Shown piece after piece: positions 5,517-31,402 of a DNA stretch of 64,000 nt. The notes under the pieces were generated by a model. It was not told where the DNA came from and ran no database searches. It was given only the letters and a program-made list of their open reading frames with translations. Made by a program: the position numbers and the translations under genes. Every line of letters begins with the position of its first letter. Positions within the stretch are counted from its first letter, which is position 1. Source of the stretch: a bacterium (GTDB lineage Bacteria > JAJVIF01); NCBI GenBank assembly GCA_022072165.1, contig JAJVIF010000003.1:1-64000 (forward strand), read 5' to 3'.

Positions 5517-5546
5517 CAAAGCGGGGCACCTGTACCAGGTGCCCCG
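5517..5546 (-). terminator. Terminator of lipoprotein B (shared, convergent)
   Basis: Perfect 11-bp stem CGGGGCACCTG / CAGGTGCCCCG (5522-5532 with 5536-5546) and a 3-nt loop. On the - strand it is followed by CTTTG. It may also stop the + strand EcsC transcript. Confidence 0.7.
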
Positions 5547-5597: not shown

Positions 5598-8021
5598 TTA
5601 CTCGAAGACGCCGATGGCATCGAGTCCCAGTGGTAGCGACAGGGTCGCGACCACCGTCGGAGGGACAGCCGCCGAGGCCGCAGATGCGTCCCAGACCCGC
5701 AGGATGCCGTCGTTGAACTCCGTGGCATAAAGGTAGTCACCGCGTCCCAAACCGACCGCCGTGATGAACGGGAACGGCGGAGCCGGCGGAGGCAGGACAT
5801 CCAGTTGGTGATCGATGGTGCCACCGAAGGGGAGTCCGATGTGCGCCACGGTGGCGACAAAGGGATCACTGACGAAGGCCCGTCCAGTGCTGGTGACAGC
5901 CGCCTCGTACCAGGCGAGTCCTGGCGGCACGGTGTCGGGAGTCCAGATGTTGCTCCCGAGGTTGAGACGTCCGCTTCCCCCATCGCCAGAATAAGTCCCC
6001 GGTCCGAAGGCGACCACATGCGATCCCCCCGGGACTTCCACCACACTGGTGGTATTGCGCAGGCCCGTAGTGTCGACATCCAGCACGACGGCATTGGTCG
6101 CCGGATTGATCTCGAGGAGCAGCCCAGCCGGAGCGGCGGTGAATGACGCGTTGAGGTGATTGCAGGCGACAAAAACCCGGCCACCGGCAGTCCGGATGAT
6201 CTCCATCGGTCGCGCGAGGAAGGTCGGGTCCGCGTATGGGGCGAGGTTCGTGGTGGCCAGCAGCCGATCGCCGGTGAAGGCGGGGTCCATGTTCAGGCGA
6301 TAGACCAGGTGGCTGTTGTACCCCGTGACACAGATCTCCGTGCTGCTGAGGAACGCCAGATCGATGGGATTCTCCCCACCGGTGAAGGCGTACTCCGCCA
6401 GCAGCTCGCCGGTCGCGAGGTGATAGACCTGCACCTTGCCATTGCCGGAGAAACCAGCACCAGAAGAGACAACAAACGCCTTATCTCCACGCAGTCCGGC
6501 ATAGGCGACCACACCGCCCACTCCGTTGAAGAAGCCAGGATCGGCAGCGATGGTGCTCCCGGTCCGGCGGATGCGGTTCCCGACATTGGTGAAGTCGCTG
6601 CCGACAAAGACATAGTCATCGGCGACCTCCACCGTGAAGAGGGCGTAGGTGTCGAACGCACTCAGGCCACCAAAGGTCACGCCATCCTGAAAAAGGACAT
6701 CCCCTTCTCCGGGGCCGGCGATCTCCGGGGCGCGGGAATCCCGCACGCGGACCAGCCCGGTGTAAGTCCCAGCTACCGCGCCTGCAGTGTTGTGGACCGT
6801 CACGCCGGTGTAGACCAGCGGGCTCGCGGCGGTTCGTCCTGTGCCGCTGGCAAGGAGTACGGAAAGCGTCTGCGGAGCCGTCAGGACACCGGGGATCTCC
6901 ACCGCGACACTCTGCACGTCCGAGGATTCCGGAATCGCTGCGCGATCCTGAACGATGGGGTCCGCTTCCAGAGGATTCCAGCCGCTCCCCTGCGGGGTCA
7001 GGCCGTTTTGCCAGTCGCGGATGGTGATCTGAAGGACCGCGGAGCTTGCAGCATCGCCGGCGCGCAGAGCGCTCCCCACCACATCGGCCTGGACTTTCCA
7101 GGCCTCCTTCCGGTTCCCTTCGGGCAGGAAGTAGACCGGACTGTTCTTCTGGAAGAGGTTGTTGCCCCGGGTGGTGTAGGACCGGTAAAAACTGCCGCTC
7201 AGGGCCAGCACCAGATCCAGCTGCGAGGTGCCAGTGGTGTCGAGATACAGCCTGACCGTATCGCTCTCGCCGCTGGAGAAGGCGTTGTGGCCGGTGGGAG
7301 CTGCGACATTGACGAATCCGTTGACATTGGTCCCGGCGAAGTTGCCCTCGTCATCGTCGACCGCCACGTTGATGAAGGGGAAGAGATCCACCGACAGATT
7401 CACCCCCAGCGCGGCTTCCAGCGAGGCGGTGAGCTGATCGGTATAGCCATCGGCGTTCAGCAGATGGGCCGGATGGACGGTGCGTCCGGCACCAGGAAAA
7501 GTGAGGACCGGCTGCTCGCCCCGATCGCTGGCGAGCAGGAGCTGCAGATCGAACGCGGTGAGTTCCGGGCGTCCTGCCGGAATCGGATGTGTCACCCGGA
7601 CATCGATCCAGGTCGCCTGCTGAAGGGGGTCGTAGCCAACCCCGGACAGCTTCATACAGTCGCCGCAGAGGCCGGCGGGGTCCGTGAAGAGCTTCGTGAG
7701 ATCCGGGATGGCGCTGTCCCCAGGTGTGAAGCCCGACGTCTGCCGGACAGGGACCGGGGCAAGTGCCAGGGTGCCCGTAAGCGGGTCGCCGGTCAGACGC
7801 CAGAGTCCCAGCGCCCCCTGAGCGCTGTCAGGACCCGTCATGATGGGAGCAAGGGGAGCGGTGGTGCTCCCAAGATTTGGCGGTGCTGCTGGCGCAGCGG
7901 GATCGCTCTCAGTCCCGGCACAGCCGAGGGTGGTCAGTGCCGCGCAAAGCAGCCAGGCGTGCGCCGCCCAGGGCCACCAGGAAGGCAGCACATCCCTGCA
8001 AATCAGTCGTGAGGTTGTCAT
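5598..8021 (-). CDS. Lipoprotein B: cobalamin-riboswitch-controlled beta-propeller lipoprotein
   Basis: 807 aa with lipobox TLGC (Cys34). Residues about 60-460 are the family core in subfamily II form: a CGDC motif near 121-124, ITIRDWQNG, and a span ending in VRDSR. From about residue 470 to the end the sequence reads as consecutive YVTN/NHL-like blades (GKVQVYHLATGELLAEY, TEICVTGYNSHLVYRLN, GLLLEINPATNAVVLDVDT, DYLYATEFNDGILRVWD), so a six- or seven-bladed propeller is likely. There is no PKD domain. A complete cobalamin riboswitch lies 222 nt upstream on the same strand. Known: BtuG of Bacteroidetes is a B12-binding, riboswitch-controlled, surface beta-propeller lipoprotein. Inference: this may be a B12-capture protein of analogous role. 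No TonB receptor is in the window. GGAG precedes the ATG. Confidence 0.75.
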   Translation of the reverse strand: MTTSRLICRDVLPSWWPWAAHAWLLCAALTTLGCAGTESDPAAPAAPPNLGSTTAPLAPIMTGPDSAQGALGLWRLTGDPLTGTLALAPVPVRQTSGFTPGDSAIPDLTKLFTDPAGLCGDCMKLSGVGYDPLQQATWIDVRVTHPIPAGRPELTAFDLQLLLASDRGEQPVLTFPGAGRTVHPAHLLNADGYTDQLTASLEAALGVNLSVDLFPFINVAVDDDEGNFAGTNVNGFVNVAAPTGHNAFSSGESDTVRLYLDTTGTSQLDLVLALSGSFYRSYTTRGNNLFQKNSPVYFLPEGNRKEAWKVQADVVGSALRAGDAASSAVLQITIRDWQNGLTPQGSGWNPLEADPIVQDRAAIPESSDVQSVAVEIPGVLTAPQTLSVLLASGTGRTAASPLVYTGVTVHNTAGAVAGTYTGLVRVRDSRAPEIAGPGEGDVLFQDGVTFGGLSAFDTYALFTVEVADDYVFVGSDFTNVGNRIRRTGSTIAADPGFFNGVGGVVAYAGLRGDKAFVVSSGAGFSGNGKVQVYHLATGELLAEYAFTGGENPIDLAFLSSTEICVTGYNSHLVYRLNMDPAFTGDRLLATTNLAPYADPTFLARPMEIIRTAGGRVFVACNHLNASFTAAPAGLLLEINPATNAVVLDVDTTGLRNTTSVVEVPGGSHVVAFGPGTYSGDGGSGRLNLGSNIWTPDTVPPGLAWYEAAVTSTGRAFVSDPFVATVAHIGLPFGGTIDHQLDVLPPPAPPFPFITAVGLGRGDYLYATEFNDGILRVWDASAASAAVPPTVVATLSLPLGLDAIGVFE

Positions 8022-8119
8022 GGAGAACTCCGGAAGCTGATGAATGGGTAGAACCCAGCTCCGGTGCAGTGCAGTGTGGAGCGCTCCGGGAGCGATCGCC
8101 AGCAGGGGGATACAGCAAG

Positions 8120-8137
8120 CCCACCGTCGCCGGTGGG
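8120..8137 (-). promoter_or_regulatory. Hairpin between the cobalamin riboswitch and lipoprotein B
   Basis: 7-bp stem CCCACCG / CGGTGGG with a GCGA tetraloop (- strand), followed by CTTGCTG. It lies between the aptamer and the start codon and could be part of the expression platform (weak terminator). The T-run is poor, so this is tentative. Confidence 0.4.
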
Positions 8138-8242
8138 TGTGAGCGCAGGCCCTGCCGGGGATGAGCCCGGACCGCGTTCACACCAAACTTGACCGAGAAG
8201 CCTGGTGTGCGGCCAGCCCCCGTTTCCGTGGACTGTCCGCCG

Positions 8243-8391
8243 GCACCTGGTCGGTCTTCTGGCTTCGGTTCCTCGTCCCGACCCGCCTTCTCAGGGACCC
8301 TGAGGTCCCCAATGGCCTGTTGTGGTCGGCACTCCCCGTTACAGCGGCTGGTCCGCGCCGGTATCTCACCGGACTTCCCATCACCAGGTGC
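8243..8391 (-). ncRNA. Cobalamin (B12) riboswitch
   Basis: Read on the - strand, all main consensus blocks occur in order: P1 GCACCTGGT (8383-8391) pairing with ACCAGGTGC (8243-8251); GGGAAGTCCGGTGAGATACC; GCGGACCAGCCGCTGTAA; GGGAG; GCCATTGG; GAGAAGGCGGG; GAGGAACCGAAGCCAGAAGACC. These match the adenosylcobalamin-type aptamer closely, including the GCCAGAAGACC core and the GGC-A-TTGG block. A TACGAT -10 (8414-8419, - strand) would start transcription about 15 nt upstream of P1. The element points at lipoprotein B. It is antisense to the upstream region of the P-type ATPase and does not control that gene. Confidence 0.93.
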
Positions 8392-8413
8392 GACTCCTTC
8401 TCAGGAGCAGAAG

Positions 8414-8419: not shown

Positions 8420-8451
8420 AGCACCGGGGAGCAGGGTTGCGCCAGACGTCC

Positions 8452-8457
8452 TACAAT
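8452..8457 (+). promoter_or_regulatory. -10 element placed for a leaderless P-type ATPase mRNA
   Basis: TACAAT followed by 6 nt and then ATG 8464. No Shine-Dalgarno precedes the ATG. The spacing would put the transcription start at or next to the A of ATG. Confidence 0.5.
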
Positions 8458-8463
8458 GCCCAC

Positions 8464-11010
8464 ATGCCCACTGCGCCTTGGCCGGCTGGGACAGGAGATG
8501 GCACTGGTGCGCTGGACACGCTCGTGGTCAGCGTCCCCGCAATGGATTGCCCCGAGGAAGTGACCCTGCTCGAAAAGGCATGGGAGCATTTAGAAGGGGT
8601 GCTCGAAGTCCGGCCCAATCTCCTTGATCGTACAGCGACGGTCATTCTCGATCCGCATAAGACCTCACCGTCTGCGCTCCTGGAAGCGCTGGCGCATGTC
8701 GGGTTGCAGGCGGAATTCACCACCCCCGGCGCACCACCAGAAGTGCAGTTTTATATCCCTAGCTATGACCAGCCTGAGACCGTTCCAGCCATCAAAAAGG
8801 CACTGGAGCAGGACGCCTCCGTCACCGACATGCAGTTTGATGATGTGGAGCGCGTGGTCCGCATTACCTTCGACCCCCGCTTCCTCTCCGTGGCCGGCGT
8901 GCAGCAGATCCTGCAGAGCACCGGCGTGGTCTTTCAGCAGGTGACCGAGGGGACACCCCGGCCTGCCCTGCCGACATCCGGATTCCCAGACCATGCCCGA
9001 CAGGTGATCCAGCCCTTTAGCGGACAACTCCGGACCGAGCCGGAAAGCGGCATATTCGTCGCGCCGCCAGAAGACCTCAGCGAGCCGCCAGCGACAGCAC
9101 TGACCACCGATCCGCGACTCATCGGCATTGCCCTGGGAGTCGTTCTTTGGGGTATCGGCGTGCTGCTGCTGCAGTTTCCGGTTACCGCCATTGTCGGGAA
9201 AGTGGTCCTGGGACTCACCGCCCTCATGCTGGGATGGCGAACGTTCCGTCGCGCCCTGCGGAGCGCGTTGAGTCGGCATCTCGACATGCATGTCCTGATG
9301 AGCGCGGCCACCCTCGGTGCGCTCGGCATCGGCGAGTGGGCCGAAGCCGCCATGCTGATGATTCTCTTCAGCTTGTCCCTGTGGGTGGAGGGCTGGAATC
9401 TGGACCGGGCCCGGTATGCGGTCCGGGCGTTCCGACGTCGGCAGCCGCCACGGGTCCGCATCTTTGTGGATGGGACCTGGGACCAGGTACCCATCGAGCG
9501 CGTCGGCCTCGGGACCCTGGCAGAGGTGCGTCCTGGCGAGATCATTCCGCTGGATGGCCGGGTCGTGAGTGGGGCAGCTTCGGTGGATGAGTCGACCCTC
9601 ACCGGCGAAGCAACCCCCGTGCACAAAACCGAAGGGCATCAGCTCTTCGCTGGCACGATCTGCCAAAACGGCGTCCTGCAGTATCGCGTGACTCATCTGC
9701 TCCGCGACTCCACCTTGCAGCGTCTGCAGCAGCTGGTCCTCGATGCTCAGGCCACCCGCGCCCCACTGCAGGGAACGGTGGATCGCTTCGCGAAAACGTA
9801 CACCCCGGCAGTGCTGGGCATCGCGCTGGTAGTTGCGCTCATCCCGCCATTGATTGGGCTAGCGCTGGACCCATCGGCCACACCCGCCGCCAAGGCTGCC
9901 ATCTGGCACACCTGGTTCTATCGAAGCCTGGGACTGCTGGTGCTGGCCTGTCCCTGTGCGCTGGTGATCTCGACTCCGGTCGCCTTTGTCGCCGCCCTGG
10001 GTCGTGCCGCACATCTGGGGATGCTGATTAAGGGGGGCAAAGCCCTGGAAGCGGTCGGTCAGCTCAAAGCGATGGCCTTCGACAAAACAGGCACGCTCAC
10101 CACGGGTGAACTGGAGCTGGTGCAGGTCGAGGGATATGGCGTCACACACACTGAAGCGCTTCAACTGGCCATGACCCTGGAGCAGACCGCGACTCATCCT
10201 GTGGCCCTCGCCATACTGCACGCGGCTCGTAAAGAGGAACTCGCACCGCTCCGGAATCTCACCGACTTTCATCAGGCGGGGGGGAAGGGGGTCGAAGGAC
10301 GCCTCGGGCAGCATACGGTGCACTTCGGCTCGATTCCCTGGCTCCTCGACGAGCGGGGGCTCGCGCTCACCGAAGAACTGGGGCAACGCCTGCAGGAAGC
10401 GGGGGCGTGGCAGGCCACCCTGATCGGCCTGCAGTCGGGGAACCAGCTGATCGGGCTCTTCGCCTTCCGGGACCCCATGCGTCCCGAAGCACCACAAGTC
10501 ATCAGCAGCCTGCGGTCCCTGGGATTGCAGCGCCTGGAAATGCTGACTGGCGACAACCCGAAGGTGGCCGAACTCGTCGGCAATGCCGCTGGGCTGGATG
10601 CCTTCCACGCGAATCTTCTTCCTGAAGATAAACCGATGCGGATCCGGGGACTCATCCAGGCGTACCAGGAAGTCGGGATGGTCGGCGATGGACTCAACGA
10701 TGCCCCGGCCCTGGCCAACGCGACAGTCGGCATCGCCATGGGTGCGCGGGGCGTGGATGTCGCGATGGAAAGTGCAGACATCGTCCTCCTGGGAGAGGAC
10801 CTGGAGCAGCTCCCGCAGCTGGTCCGGCTGTCGCGACAGACCATGGACATCATTCGTCAGAACATCCTGCTCGCCCTGGCAATCAAAGGTGTGTTTTTAC
10901 TGGCATTGAGTGTCGGATGGTTCGGACTCTGGGCGGCGGTCCTGGGAGACATGGGAGGCAGCCTTGCGGTCACCGCAAACAGCCTGCGGCTCCTGCGACG
11001 GACACCGTAG
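8464..11010 (+). CDS. Heavy-metal P1B-type ATPase (Zn/Cd/Pb exporter type)
   Basis: 848 aa from ATG 8464. An upstream in-frame TTG at 8437 is less likely. An N-terminal HMA-like fold carries MDCPEE near residue 27, and a second ferredoxin-like repeat spans about 95-150. Next come transmembrane helices, DESTLTGEA (about 374), the CPC metal site LACPCALVIST (about 494), the phosphorylation motif DKTGTLT (Asp540), THPVA (about 577) and GDGLNDAPALA (about 741). TM7 has Lys in LALAIKGVF and TM8 has GDMGGSLAVTANSLRLL. Known: CPC plus K plus DxG marks the P1B-2 group that exports Zn2+, Cd2+ and Pb2+ from the cytoplasm. The first HMA has a single Cys rather than CxxC. The gene converges on a PerR-type regulator. 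Confidence 0.93.
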   Translation: MPTAPWPAGTGDGTGALDTLVVSVPAMDCPEEVTLLEKAWEHLEGVLEVRPNLLDRTATVILDPHKTSPSALLEALAHVGLQAEFTTPGAPPEVQFYIPSYDQPETVPAIKKALEQDASVTDMQFDDVERVVRITFDPRFLSVAGVQQILQSTGVVFQQVTEGTPRPALPTSGFPDHARQVIQPFSGQLRTEPESGIFVAPPEDLSEPPATALTTDPRLIGIALGVVLWGIGVLLLQFPVTAIVGKVVLGLTALMLGWRTFRRALRSALSRHLDMHVLMSAATLGALGIGEWAEAAMLMILFSLSLWVEGWNLDRARYAVRAFRRRQPPRVRIFVDGTWDQVPIERVGLGTLAEVRPGEIIPLDGRVVSGAASVDESTLTGEATPVHKTEGHQLFAGTICQNGVLQYRVTHLLRDSTLQRLQQLVLDAQATRAPLQGTVDRFAKTYTPAVLGIALVVALIPPLIGLALDPSATPAAKAAIWHTWFYRSLGLLVLACPCALVISTPVAFVAALGRAAHLGMLIKGGKALEAVGQLKAMAFDKTGTLTTGELELVQVEGYGVTHTEALQLAMTLEQTATHPVALAILHAARKEELAPLRNLTDFHQAGGKGVEGRLGQHTVHFGSIPWLLDERGLALTEELGQRLQEAGAWQATLIGLQSGNQLIGLFAFRDPMRPEAPQVISSLRSLGLQRLEMLTGDNPKVAELVGNAAGLDAFHANLLPEDKPMRIRGLIQAYQEVGMVGDGLNDAPALANATVGIAMGARGVDVAMESADIVLLGEDLEQLPQLVRLSRQTMDIIRQNILLALAIKGVFLLALSVGWFGLWAAVLGDMGGSLAVTANSLRLLRRTP

Positions 11011-11015
11011 GCAGG

Positions 11016-11411
11016 CTAGCGCAGGCAGTCCGCGCAGACACCATGCATTTCAAGCTGGACATGATCGACCCGGACACCCTCCGGGAGAGCGGCGACCCGC
11101 TCGGCGGCCACCGGTCGCTGCAGGCGCACATCCATAATCGCCCCGCACTCTGAACAGATGAAGTGGTGATGCGGTTCCATCATGGCGTCGTAGCGGGTCG
11201 GCTCATCCCCGAACTGCAGTTCTTTCACCCGCCCCTGATCCCGCAGGATTTGCAGGTTACGGTAGACCGTCCCCAGCGACAGGTTCGGCAGTTCATGGCG
11301 TGCCTGGCTGTAGAGCCACTCCGCTGTCGGGTGCGCCGTGGTCGCTGCCAGGAGACGGTAGATCACCTCGCGCTGACGGGAGTAGTTGTATCTGCGCTCG
11401 GCGGTCGCCAT
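11016..11411 (-). CDS. perR: Fur-family regulator, PerR type
   Basis: 131 aa from the ATG at 11411, chosen because GAGGTG sits just upstream; an in-frame extension to 11552 is probably spurious. The winged-helix DNA-binding part is followed by HHHFICSECG and VCADCL, giving the structural zinc site Cys86, Cys89, Cys126, Cys129. His27, Asp75, His81, His83 and Asp94 fall at a constant offset of ten from B. subtilis PerR His37, Asp85, His91, His93 and Asp104, the regulatory Fe/Mn site. That spacing favours a peroxide sensor over Zur or Fur. It ends 5 bp from the metal ATPase and is divergent from the DUF378 gene. Known parallel: the B. subtilis P-type ATPase gene zosA is PerR-controlled. Confidence 0.82.
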   Translation of the reverse strand: MATAERRYNYSRQREVIYRLLAATTAHPTAEWLYSQARHELPNLSLGTVYRNLQILRDQGRVKELQFGDEPTRYDAMMEPHHHFICSECGAIMDVRLQRPVAAERVAALPEGVRVDHVQLEMHGVCADCLR

Positions 11412-11557
11412 GGCACCTCTGGAGTGAGCGGGCTTGCGGTCAAAGCCGCGAATCATTCCTATTTTCGTGGGTGAACGGGAGTGTGTCAATGGCGTGTAAC
11501 GTCCGGAAGCCCCTGGGGCGACACCCGAAGAATTTTCCAGAAAATCGCTCATAACGC

Positions 11558-27465: not shown

Positions 27466-30400
27466 TTACGTGATCTTAAGCCGAGCGCTCGCTTGCAAGA
27501 GGGCAGCTGGCAGGGGATAGCGCAGCTCCCAGAGGATGCACATAGGCCGCGATCCTTCATGGGACACATAGTTCACAGGTCCTAAGAAGTAGTATGGCTG
27601 GGCCAACCCATCGACCTTCTTCCGTTCCCGCACGAACAACAAGAAGATGCACCCGCGATCGATACGCCCCGTGAAACGCTTTCCAGTGTCGGAATCTGCA
27701 CTTGTCGCATTTTGAGATTCCCAATGGAAGAGCCGCTCATTGACTGCGTAGTCTCGATACATCGTGGTGGGAGAGTAGTCCGATTCACTTTTTTCCAAAG
27801 TGACGAAAAATAGATACGTGTTTAAGTGCGGAAGGTAACGCATGCCCTCACGCATGGAAAAGTTGTCGCCGAGCTTTAAGTCATCGAAGGCTGCCTGGAT
27901 TTCATCGCGAGTGTACTCCGAGTGCACCATCAGCGGGCAGGGATAGGGCAGTTCGGGCTCCAGCGGCAAGAAACCTCGTTGCTCAATATTGAATTGCAGC
28001 AGGTGCCTCAGTTCCTGAACATGCCGCGGATTCTCCAAAAGTTTTTGTAGACCGGATTCTTCCGTCAAATCTGCTGTGCCGCGACCGTTCATCGAAAAGT
28101 AGATCATCCGTGCACGCCGCCGTGCTTGTTCATCGAGGGTGTCGATCTTTTCTACCGACCCAAGCAACTCGAGGAAAGCGGGATCTGCTAAGTGAGACGC
28201 GCGACGCAGGCCTTGCTTCAACCGATCGGTGTCAGGCTCTGTTGGGGCTGAGAGCCAGCCAGCCTCCCGCTGCAATTGGTCGAAGGTCAGGTATTTATAG
28301 AAGTACTGCGGCGCGACACGGTTCGCACTGAAGTACTCGCTGAGCGTTGGCGGACGCCCAAGCTCTTCGGCTTGTTGCCTCGCCAGCTGAATCAGCTGCT
28401 GCGCTCTGACAATCGTCCCGCGAATATTCTCCAGGATGCGTTCTTGGGACACCCGGTCTAGGACGATGGCGCAACCGGGGGGCAAGTGCGGGAAGCCACG
28501 CTTGATCTCGTCTTCCACAGAGCGCCGGCGTCCTCGAAGTAGCGCTTGAAATCGCTCCTCAAAGCGAAATCCGCGCTGCTGTTGCGCCACAAAATCAAGG
28601 ATTGTGAGGCATTCCTTGCCGGGAGACAGCCGGAGGCCGCGCCCGATTTGCTGCAAGAAGACCAACAAGCTCTCAGTGGGACGTAAGAGCAGCACCGTAT
28701 CGACTTCGGGAATGTCGATCCCCTCGCCGAGGACATCGACCGTGAACAGAAAATTGAGCTCTCGTTTCTGCAACTGCTGTATCAGCTGGAGCCGCTCCGT
28801 ATGAGGCACTCCGCCTGTGACCGCCGCGGCAGGTATTCCGGCTTGCTGAAACGACCGGGCCATGTACTGCGCGTGCCTGACCGACGCGCAGAATCCGATT
28901 CCCCGAGCAAGCGACACCTCTGTGAGCTTGCTTTCGAGCTCTTGCAAGATGAGATTCGTTCGTGCCTGGTTGTCCAGCATTAGGCGCTCAAGCTCGGTGG
29001 TGTCATATGCCCCACGACGCCACGCAACGCGCGACAAGTCGAGTAAGTCCGCGATCCCGAAATACTGAAACGGGCAAAGCAACTCCCGCGTGATGGCGTC
29101 GGGAAGTCGGATTTCTTCAGTGATGCGACCACCGAAGTGGTGCAAGATGTCCTTAACATCGGTCCGTTCAGGTGTCGCAGTCAGGCCGAGGAGTTCTTTC
29201 GGACGCAGGAACTCAAGCAGTGCCACATAGGTGGGAGCAGCTGCATGGTGGAACTCGTCCACGATGACGTAATCGAAGTGGTCTGGGCTGAACTCATCTG
29301 CGAGCCGCTTTGCGTGAAAGCTCTGGATGGAGCAGAAAAGATGGTCGTACTGACTGGGCACGTGGTCACCGACCAGCAGGTCCCCAAAACTACCATCGCG
29401 CAGAATTCCGCGGAAGCTGTACAGACTCTGCCGCAAGATTTCTGCGGTATGTGCGATGAAGAGAAGGCGCGGTTGACGGCCTTCCCGCTGAATGAATTCC
29501 TGGCGATACGCCTTGTAGTCAAAACCCGCGATCATGGTTTTCCCGGTTCCAGTTGCGGCGACTACGAGATGCTGGTGACGGTCTAGTCCCAACCGCTCCA
29601 TTCGGAGACGATCCAAAATCACCTGCTGGAAGCCGAAAGGACGTAAATCAAACGCTTGGAAGTCGATTTGCTCCGCTTGTTTGGAACGCTCCTGATGCAG
29701 CGCTGTCCGCAAGCGCCCAGCATCCGCCATCGCGTACAACTCAAACTCGGGGTCCTGCCAGTACGACTCAAACGTACTGCGCACTTTCTGCCATACGGTA
29801 CCGGAGTCGGCCTGACTGATTTTGACAACCCACTCCAGCCCTTCAGTCAGGGCCGCTTGAGATACATTGGCGGATCCCACATAGGCCGCGCTGTAACCGG
29901 TCTGCCGATGAAAGCAATAGGCCTTTGCGTGCAAGCGAGTCCGTTGGGTGTCGTAGGAGATGCGGACTTGCGTGTTAGGGAGCCTCGCCAGTTCCTCGAT
30001 AGCTTTGGCGTCTGTAGCACCCATGTAGCTTGTCGTAATGATGCGTAGCTGATGCCCTGGGGTCCCTACAAAGCGTGTCAGTTCATCCCAGAGAAGGCGC
30101 AATCCGCTCCACTTGATGAACGAGCAGAGGATGTCGCAGCGATCCGCTGACGCGAGTTCTTTTTTCAGCTGCGATGCCAAGTGCGGTTCGCTGTCCGTAC
30201 CGGTCAGCAAGCAATTGACGCTCATTGGTGTGTCGGGGCGTGGTGGTAGTGCAGTCCCATGGGGATATAACGCTTCTAAGGCTTCCACACCTGCATCTAC
30301 AGCCGTGTTGTAAAAACTCAGCAGTAGTCCTGGCTTCTCAATGGCTAAACAAAGTGCCTGAAACAGCTGCTCCTGATCCTTCAACCCAGCATCCTCCAAC

Positions 30401-30597
30401 ACGCGCTCAAACTCTACCTCCAGCCGTTGTCGCAACGCGGCTGCCAACATCGCAGGCTGGTCCGGTGGTGAGGGCGTCTTGAGGGAAGCTTCGATGCCTT
30501 CGTGGGCCAGGGATTGCAGGTGCAATCGGAGAGCGGGGTCGAGGATCCGCTCATAGAGCCCCATTGGAAGCTGAATTGGCAGTTTGTCGGTCGACAT
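27466..30597 (-). CDS. PLD-nuclease / superfamily II helicase / DUF3427 protein
   Basis: 1043 aa from the ATG at 30597; the longer frame lacks similarity. Residues about 130-255 are a phospholipase-D-like nuclease domain ([13 protein letters not shown] ... RLHAKAYCF ... [12 protein letters not shown]). SF2 helicase: Walker [14 protein letters not shown] (about 345-352), Walker [10 protein letters not shown] (about 445), [12 protein letters not shown], and motif [16 protein letters not shown]3427-type C-terminal region spans about 780-1043 ([23 protein letters not shown] ... FLLFVRERK). Known: PLD plus SF2 helicase plus DUF3427 is a stand-alone bacterial architecture often placed in defence loci, with probable DNA cleavage/translocation activity. 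It is divergent from clpP with a 184-bp gap. There is no Shine-Dalgarno; a TATCCT lies 10 nt before the ATG. Confidence 0.85.
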
Positions 30598-30781
30598 CGC
30601 GGGAAGGAGGATAGCACTCCCCTTCCCCTCTCCCCCGACGGACGGGGGCGGCGGGGAAACTGTCCCGGGCTGGTCCCATTGCGCGGGGGACCAAGAGACA
30701 TTAAGGTACCCCCCGGACGCCGCCCCACCGGCAGCGCCCGTCGACCACCGACTCCCCAGGCCCCCGGAGGCGCCCCGCCCC

Positions 30782-31402
30782 ATGATCCCCTACGTCATCG
30801 AGCAGACCGCCCGCGGCGAGCGCTCCTACGACATCTTTTCGCGGCTCCTGAAGGACCGCATCATCCTGCTGGGGCAACCGGTCGATGACCACATCGCCAA
30901 CCTGATCGTCGCGCAACTCCTCTTCCTCGAAAAGGAAGACCCGGAAAAGGACATCGACCTCTACATCAACTCCCCCGGCGGGGTCGTGACCGCGGGCCTC
31001 GCGATCTACGACACCATGCAGATCATTCGTCCGGATGTCGTGACGATCTGTGTCGGGCAGGCGATGAGCATGGGGGCCGTGATCCTGGCCGGCGGCGCCC
31101 CAGGGAAGCGTCTGGCGCTCCAGAACGCGAGCATTCTGATCCATCAGCCCCTGGGGGGTGCCCGCGGACAGGCGTCGGATATCGAGATCCACGCGAAGGA
31201 GATCCTGCGGACCCGGTCGCTGCTCAACGGGATTCTGGCGAAACATACGGGGCAGGACCTGGAGACCATCGGGCGGGACACGGACCGCGACCATTTCATG
31301 ACGTCGGAAGAGGCGCTGAACTACGGTCTGATCGACGAGATTGTGAAGTCGCGGGCGGATGTCGAGGCGCTGAAGAAGAAGCTCAGCGAAGGAGGGGGGT
31401 AA
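30782..31402 (+). CDS. clpP: ATP-dependent Clp protease proteolytic subunit
   Basis: 206 aa. Catalytic triad Ser96 (GQAMSMGA), His121 (ILIHQPLGG) and Asp170 (DTDRDHFM) are all present, with YINSPGG, the Gly-rich loop over the substrate site. The start [23 protein letters not shown] is the family's usual N-terminus, with GGAGG upstream. Known: ClpP forms a double heptamer that degrades proteins fed by ClpX or ClpA/C in the cytoplasm. clpX normally follows directly; here it is 3.9 kb downstream, split off by a methyltransferase, a GHKL ATPase and a HicB remnant on AT-richer DNA. Confidence 0.97.

Follow-up and report, generated by a model that had tools for sequence, protein, structure and literature searches.

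The window (the whole stretch of 64,000 nucleotides that was analysed) encodes, between positions 2026 and 61716, thirteen lipoproteins with a common N-terminal domain, many of them with PKD domains. A lipoprotein gene with this domain is preceded by a cobalamin riboswitch. The features of the locus, read from the riboswitch to the 3' end of the gene, and the two other cobalamin riboswitches of the genome are the following:

8232..8403, minus strand: cobalamin riboswitch aptamer (RF00174; cmscan, 79.1 bits, E 7.8e-18)
8022..8231, minus strand: leader from the aptamer to the start codon, 210 nt
8028..8031, minus strand: candidate Shine-Dalgarno sequence GGAG, 6 nt before the ATG (from the sequence)
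5598..8021, minus strand: lipoprotein gene P0001, 807 aa, ATG start (open reading frame)
7920..8021, minus strand: signal peptide and lipobox, lipidation at Cys34 (PROSITE lipoprotein pattern)
6612..7919, minus strand: N-terminal domain, residues 35-470 (41 matches in the genome, including itself)
5601..6611, minus strand: predicted BtuG-like seven-bladed propeller, residues 471-807 (AlphaFold2, Foldseek, profile)
5522..5546, minus strand: terminator-like hairpin 3' of the lipoprotein gene (terminator scan)
C2:231767-231942: second cobalamin riboswitch of the genome
C1:1095819-1096005: third cobalamin riboswitch of the genome

The cobalamin riboswitch that a sequence-only reading of this DNA had placed at 8243-8391 (minus strand) is confirmed by the Rfam covariance check: the RF00174 match at 8232-8403 scores 79.1 bits (gathering score 31.5), covers the whole model (1-189) and is the sole Rfam match in the 64-kb window. 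Its B12-box core is common to the other eight riboswitches of the class. The aptamer sits directly 5' of the 807-aa open reading frame on the same strand, an arrangement corresponding to the riboswitch control of BtuG, and does read into the lipoprotein gene, as had been claimed, through the 210-nt leader. No terminator-like site was detected in this leader by the terminator scan and, in an unconstrained fold of the leader, three of the four bases of the GGAG motif are mostly paired; these two features suggest translational repression, and B12 most likely acts by hiding the ribosome-binding site. The terminator-like hairpin 3' of the gene and the convergent orientation of the next gene make a single-gene transcript probable. 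A divergent gene coding for a heavy-metal P-type ATPase with an HMA domain (8437-11010, plus strand) adjoins the riboswitch gene; it was considered as the target of the riboswitch and rejected, being on the opposite strand. Neither this ATPase nor the Fur-family regulator encoded nearby (11016-11552, minus strand) shows any sign of belonging to the unit of the riboswitch gene.

The encoded protein begins with a signal peptide whose lipobox, LLCAALTTLGC, ends at Cys34 and satisfies the PROSITE lipoprotein pattern, in agreement with the sequence-only reading. Behind this lipobox lies the N-terminal domain of about 435 residues, with 41 matching places in the genome, the window protein counted; the family profile, which includes the window protein, matches residues 21-465 (E 5.7e-132). 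Elsewhere, proteins with this domain often carry PKD or other C-termini, and PKD-like domains are carried by most of the relatives in the window, whereas no Pfam domain, PKD included, was found in the window protein, a difference that had already been remarked from the sequence. Searched as a single sequence against Pfam, NCBIfam and the PDB, the window protein gave no useful match, and the AlphaFold2 model of the N-terminal domain (pLDDT 53.5) is too weak for a structure search.

The propeller that had been claimed at the C-terminus is recovered by structure prediction. Indeed, the AlphaFold2 model of the C-terminal 337 residues is confident (pLDDT 78.6, pTM 0.83), and its 28 predicted strands fit seven blades of four strands. 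Foldseek comparison of this model with 350,542 PDB chains gave 1,347 chains at E<=0.001, the first 11 of which are all BtuG (E 9.2e-13 to 2.4e-10), followed directly by the first non-BtuG chain, 3SCY (E 2.5e-10); these 11 chains represent few distinct BtuG proteins, and in E-value they lead other propellers by a modest margin. Such a ranking of a predicted model is strong for the fold and suggestive for the function. Structurally aligned, the propeller and BtuG share about 12% identity, no BtuG was found by phmmer with the single sequence of the window protein, and family profiles that include this protein reach BtuG at best at 2e-5 / 5e-4, over short stretches only. Net charge was considered as a BtuG-like signature and rejected, control domains of local lipoproteins being equally acidic.

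Four genomes of the class were compared, namely this one (G000) and three relatives available as drafts (G001 to G003). A propeller profile was built from four stand-alone propeller lipoproteins of the class, without the window protein. Over the four whole genomes, it matched below 1e-4, beyond its own members, only the window protein (8.2e-19) and a G001 protein (G001:C111, 7.8e-10), both encoded directly behind cobalamin riboswitches. By hhalign, the window propeller matches this profile with a probability of 98.9% (E 3.7e-17); by BLAST it matches, among the loci tested, only the BtuG-like lipoproteins of the class, and residues 471-807 match none of the C-terminal parts of other local lipoproteins that were tested. 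Since the N-terminal domain belongs to the local family and the propeller has matches only to propeller lipoproteins that are encoded separately in related genomes, the window gene is, from these sequence comparisons, a fusion of the lipoprotein N-domain common in this lineage with a BtuG-like propeller. The sequence-only reading had supposed that the local lipoprotein family was the source of the capture protein; this holds for the N-terminal ~435 residues only and not for the propeller. A contig scan with the full window protein found no relatives, and a pattern scan with the propeller alignment, by which alone the extent of the family beyond the four genomes was probed, returned only the three known relatives of the class (records DAOVJF010000003, JAGGVT010000070 and JAPKYR010000306; one labelled Planctomycetota and two 'bacterium').

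Nine cobalamin riboswitches are present in the four class genomes, all before envelope genes and none (0/9) before a biosynthetic gene. Three of the units led by them are in G000 and include lipoproteins that carry the N-terminal domain of the window protein. The earlier statement that the window protein is the only member with a riboswitch is thus correct for the window and not for the genome, where the riboswitches at C2 and C1 also lead such lipoproteins: (i) the C2 riboswitch is followed by a 773-aa N-domain lipoprotein and then by a stand-alone BtuG-like propeller (C2:231767-235343, L004:7767-11343), and (ii) the C1 riboswitch is followed by a 630-aa lipoprotein, after which an ECF-type transporter and a further N-domain lipoprotein are encoded. 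In G003, a riboswitch, a lipoprotein, the sole TonB receptor and a BtuG-like propeller follow one another in this order in one operon, and the same lipoprotein - TonB receptor - propeller operon is encoded in G001, where the contig ends upstream. In G002, one riboswitch stands before the TonB receptor gene, one before a BtuG-like propeller, and the third before a lipoprotein in which the N-domain is combined with SBBP propeller repeats. Wherever upstream DNA is present, the BtuG-like propeller family is riboswitch-linked.

Two further observations concern these units. In the C1 unit of G000 (L005:7819-15998), the 630-aa lipoprotein is PQQ-propeller-like (weak match); the unit also encodes a membrane protein that is putatively of the ECF S type and has a lipoprotein-like ectodomain, together with a T component and a fused double ATPase. 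A different riboswitch-led propeller lipoprotein is common to two of the relatives: it comprises the 467-residue G001:C111 (L066:5184-6584) and a clearly similar lipoprotein behind the second riboswitch of G003 (G003:C268, L065 after 1923).

One TonB receptor is encoded in each of the four genomes. The four receptors are alignable (31-33% identity to the G000 receptor); against solved receptors, the best score of their profile is to E. coli BtuB, the colicin I receptor being close behind. In NCBIfam, each of the three receptors tested has the B12 receptor model TIGR01779 as its first-ranked match, below the cut-off of the model. The sole receptor of G000 (C1:1057875-1058906) has no riboswitch of its own, and the window gene is not linked to it, whereas the stand-alone propeller relatives of G001 and G003 show the btuB linkage typical of BtuG. 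MotA/ExbB-family proteins are also present. Neither CbiC nor CobS is encoded in any of the four genomes, an absence that weighs less in the drafts G001-G003, and on this basis the four genomes probably scavenge B12; a B12-dependent ribonucleotide reductase is encoded in G000. The genome search for btuB and btuCDF proposed by the sequence-only reading was successful for the former, as a single BtuB-like TonB receptor, and not for the permease: no FecCD (BtuC-type) protein was found in G000, although FecCD proteins were found in G001-G003. As no FecCD permease was found, the ECF-type transporter is probably the inner-membrane B12 route in G000, and it is possible that its riboswitch-led operon replaces BtuCD.

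BtuG was reported to be exclusive to Bacteroidetes (Wexler et al. 2018, PMC6143338), and among the papers found none describes BtuG outside this group. The BtuG proteins of gut Bacteroides (BtuG2/BT1954 and BtuG3/BT2095; PDB 3DSM, 8BMY, 8OKV) are likewise seven-bladed propeller lipoproteins under cobalamin riboswitches; they are the best PDB fold match to the window propeller, whose relatives in the class also lie in operons with BtuB-like receptors. Unlike BtuG, the window protein comes from outside Bacteroidetes, its gene is not beside btuB, and its propeller is C-terminal to a large unrelated N-domain. A fusion is also known in BtuG1 (BT_1490), a riboswitch-regulated B12 lipoprotein whose BtuG propeller is joined to a BtuH domain (PMC8941943); the propeller of BtuG1 is N-terminal, however, and its extracellular partner binds B12, whereas that of the window protein is the N-domain of the lineage. 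BtuH and BtuJ/DUF4465 are accessory B12-binding lipoproteins of riboswitch-regulated loci, DUF4465 being spread over several phyla (PMC8941943, PMC13398666); their folds differ from that of the window propeller, and the window protein has no Pfam match.

Taken together, these results point, with a probability of about 0.7, to a B12-repressed envelope lipoprotein that captures corrinoids in a BtuG-like manner outside Bacteroidetes. The proposal of such a function in the sequence-only reading is well supported by the fold, the profile matches and the class-wide riboswitch and btuB context, while B12 binding itself, surface exposure and partnership with BtuB are inferred by analogy with BtuG, whose mode of action is described in PMC6143338 and PMC10404256. 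When cellular B12 is ample, the aptamer would bind it and expression would be shut off; when B12 is scarce, the aptamer would be empty and the lipoprotein would be made and lipid-anchored at Cys34. The propeller would then bind the corrinoid, as BtuG does, and hand it over to the single BtuB-like TonB receptor of the genome, and the inner membrane would probably be crossed via the riboswitch-led ECF-type transporter. The protein was not classed as BtuG itself, because its gene has no btuB linkage, the profile matches to BtuG are short and binding rests on the analogy.

A variant of this reading concerns localisation, and its probability overlaps with that of the reading itself: the protein could be periplasmic, catch B12 after its passage through the receptor and feed it to the ECF transporter, standing in for BtuF. 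Such a role would fit a genome with an ECF-type transporter operon behind a cobalamin riboswitch, with no FecCD permease found and with a single PF01497 protein that has no evident signal peptide at its start. It nevertheless appears unlikely, since the stand-alone propellers of G001 and G003 are encoded, like btuG, in one operon with the outer-membrane receptor, and both PF01497 and FecCD proteins are present in these genomes.

Somewhat less probable still is a generic propeller of the YncE/YVTN type, binding a partner protein or another ligand and contributing to B12 uptake only in an indirect way, such as by scaffolding the receptor or other lipoproteins. By sequence, the class-family profiles do score generic propellers (1L0Q, YncE 3VGZ), which belong to the same fold class, above BtuG; furthermore, the motifs VNSLSNS and GDGPDA, common to its relatives in the class, have diverged and are partly lost in the window propeller, whose ligand could thus have changed. 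By fold, however, BtuG outranks all generic propellers in Foldseek, and the closest relatives of the window propeller occur together with btuB-like receptors under B12 riboswitches; to our knowledge, YncE and YVTN propellers are not B12-regulated. An ordinary local lipoprotein that came to lie behind a duplicated riboswitch and has no B12 function is conceivable in a genome with about 40 paralogous N-domains, but it is very improbable, as the propeller belongs to the riboswitch-linked family in particular and the aptamer shares no more than 56-58% identity with the other two of the genome, for which reason a recent duplication of the riboswitch was rejected.

With BtuG-like corrinoid capture as the preferred reading, a hybrid B12 pathway can be proposed tentatively for this lineage, at somewhat less than even odds: a single BtuB-like receptor would be served by BtuG-like capture lipoproteins, of which one is fused to a lineage-specific domain, and in G000 BtuCD would be replaced by an ECF transporter, most of these parts being riboswitch-controlled. 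If this pathway exists, BtuG-type capture would be an old or transferred strategy and not an invention of Bacteroidetes. Should corrinoid binding by the propeller be real, the pairing of a propeller lipoprotein with a TonB receptor for B12 capture would be a wider strategy, used also by uncultivated bacteria that are seemingly unable to make B12. The riboswitch-led propeller lipoproteins and the domains neighbouring them form a small, testable set of candidate B12-handling envelope proteins.

A C-terminal domain designated 'FIVFENAF' is encoded in the N-domain lipoprotein of the C2 unit of G000 and also in the operons of G001 and G003, and is a candidate for a further B12-handling domain. It weakly resembles the Leptospira LIC_13355 lipoprotein family, below the cut-off; its identification as a BtuH homologue was rejected, as it has no PDB match. 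Finally, a helicase with PLD and DUF3427 domains is encoded among the lipoprotein genes of the window (27466-30783, minus strand); in PADLOC it strongly matches a type IV methyl-directed restriction enzyme.
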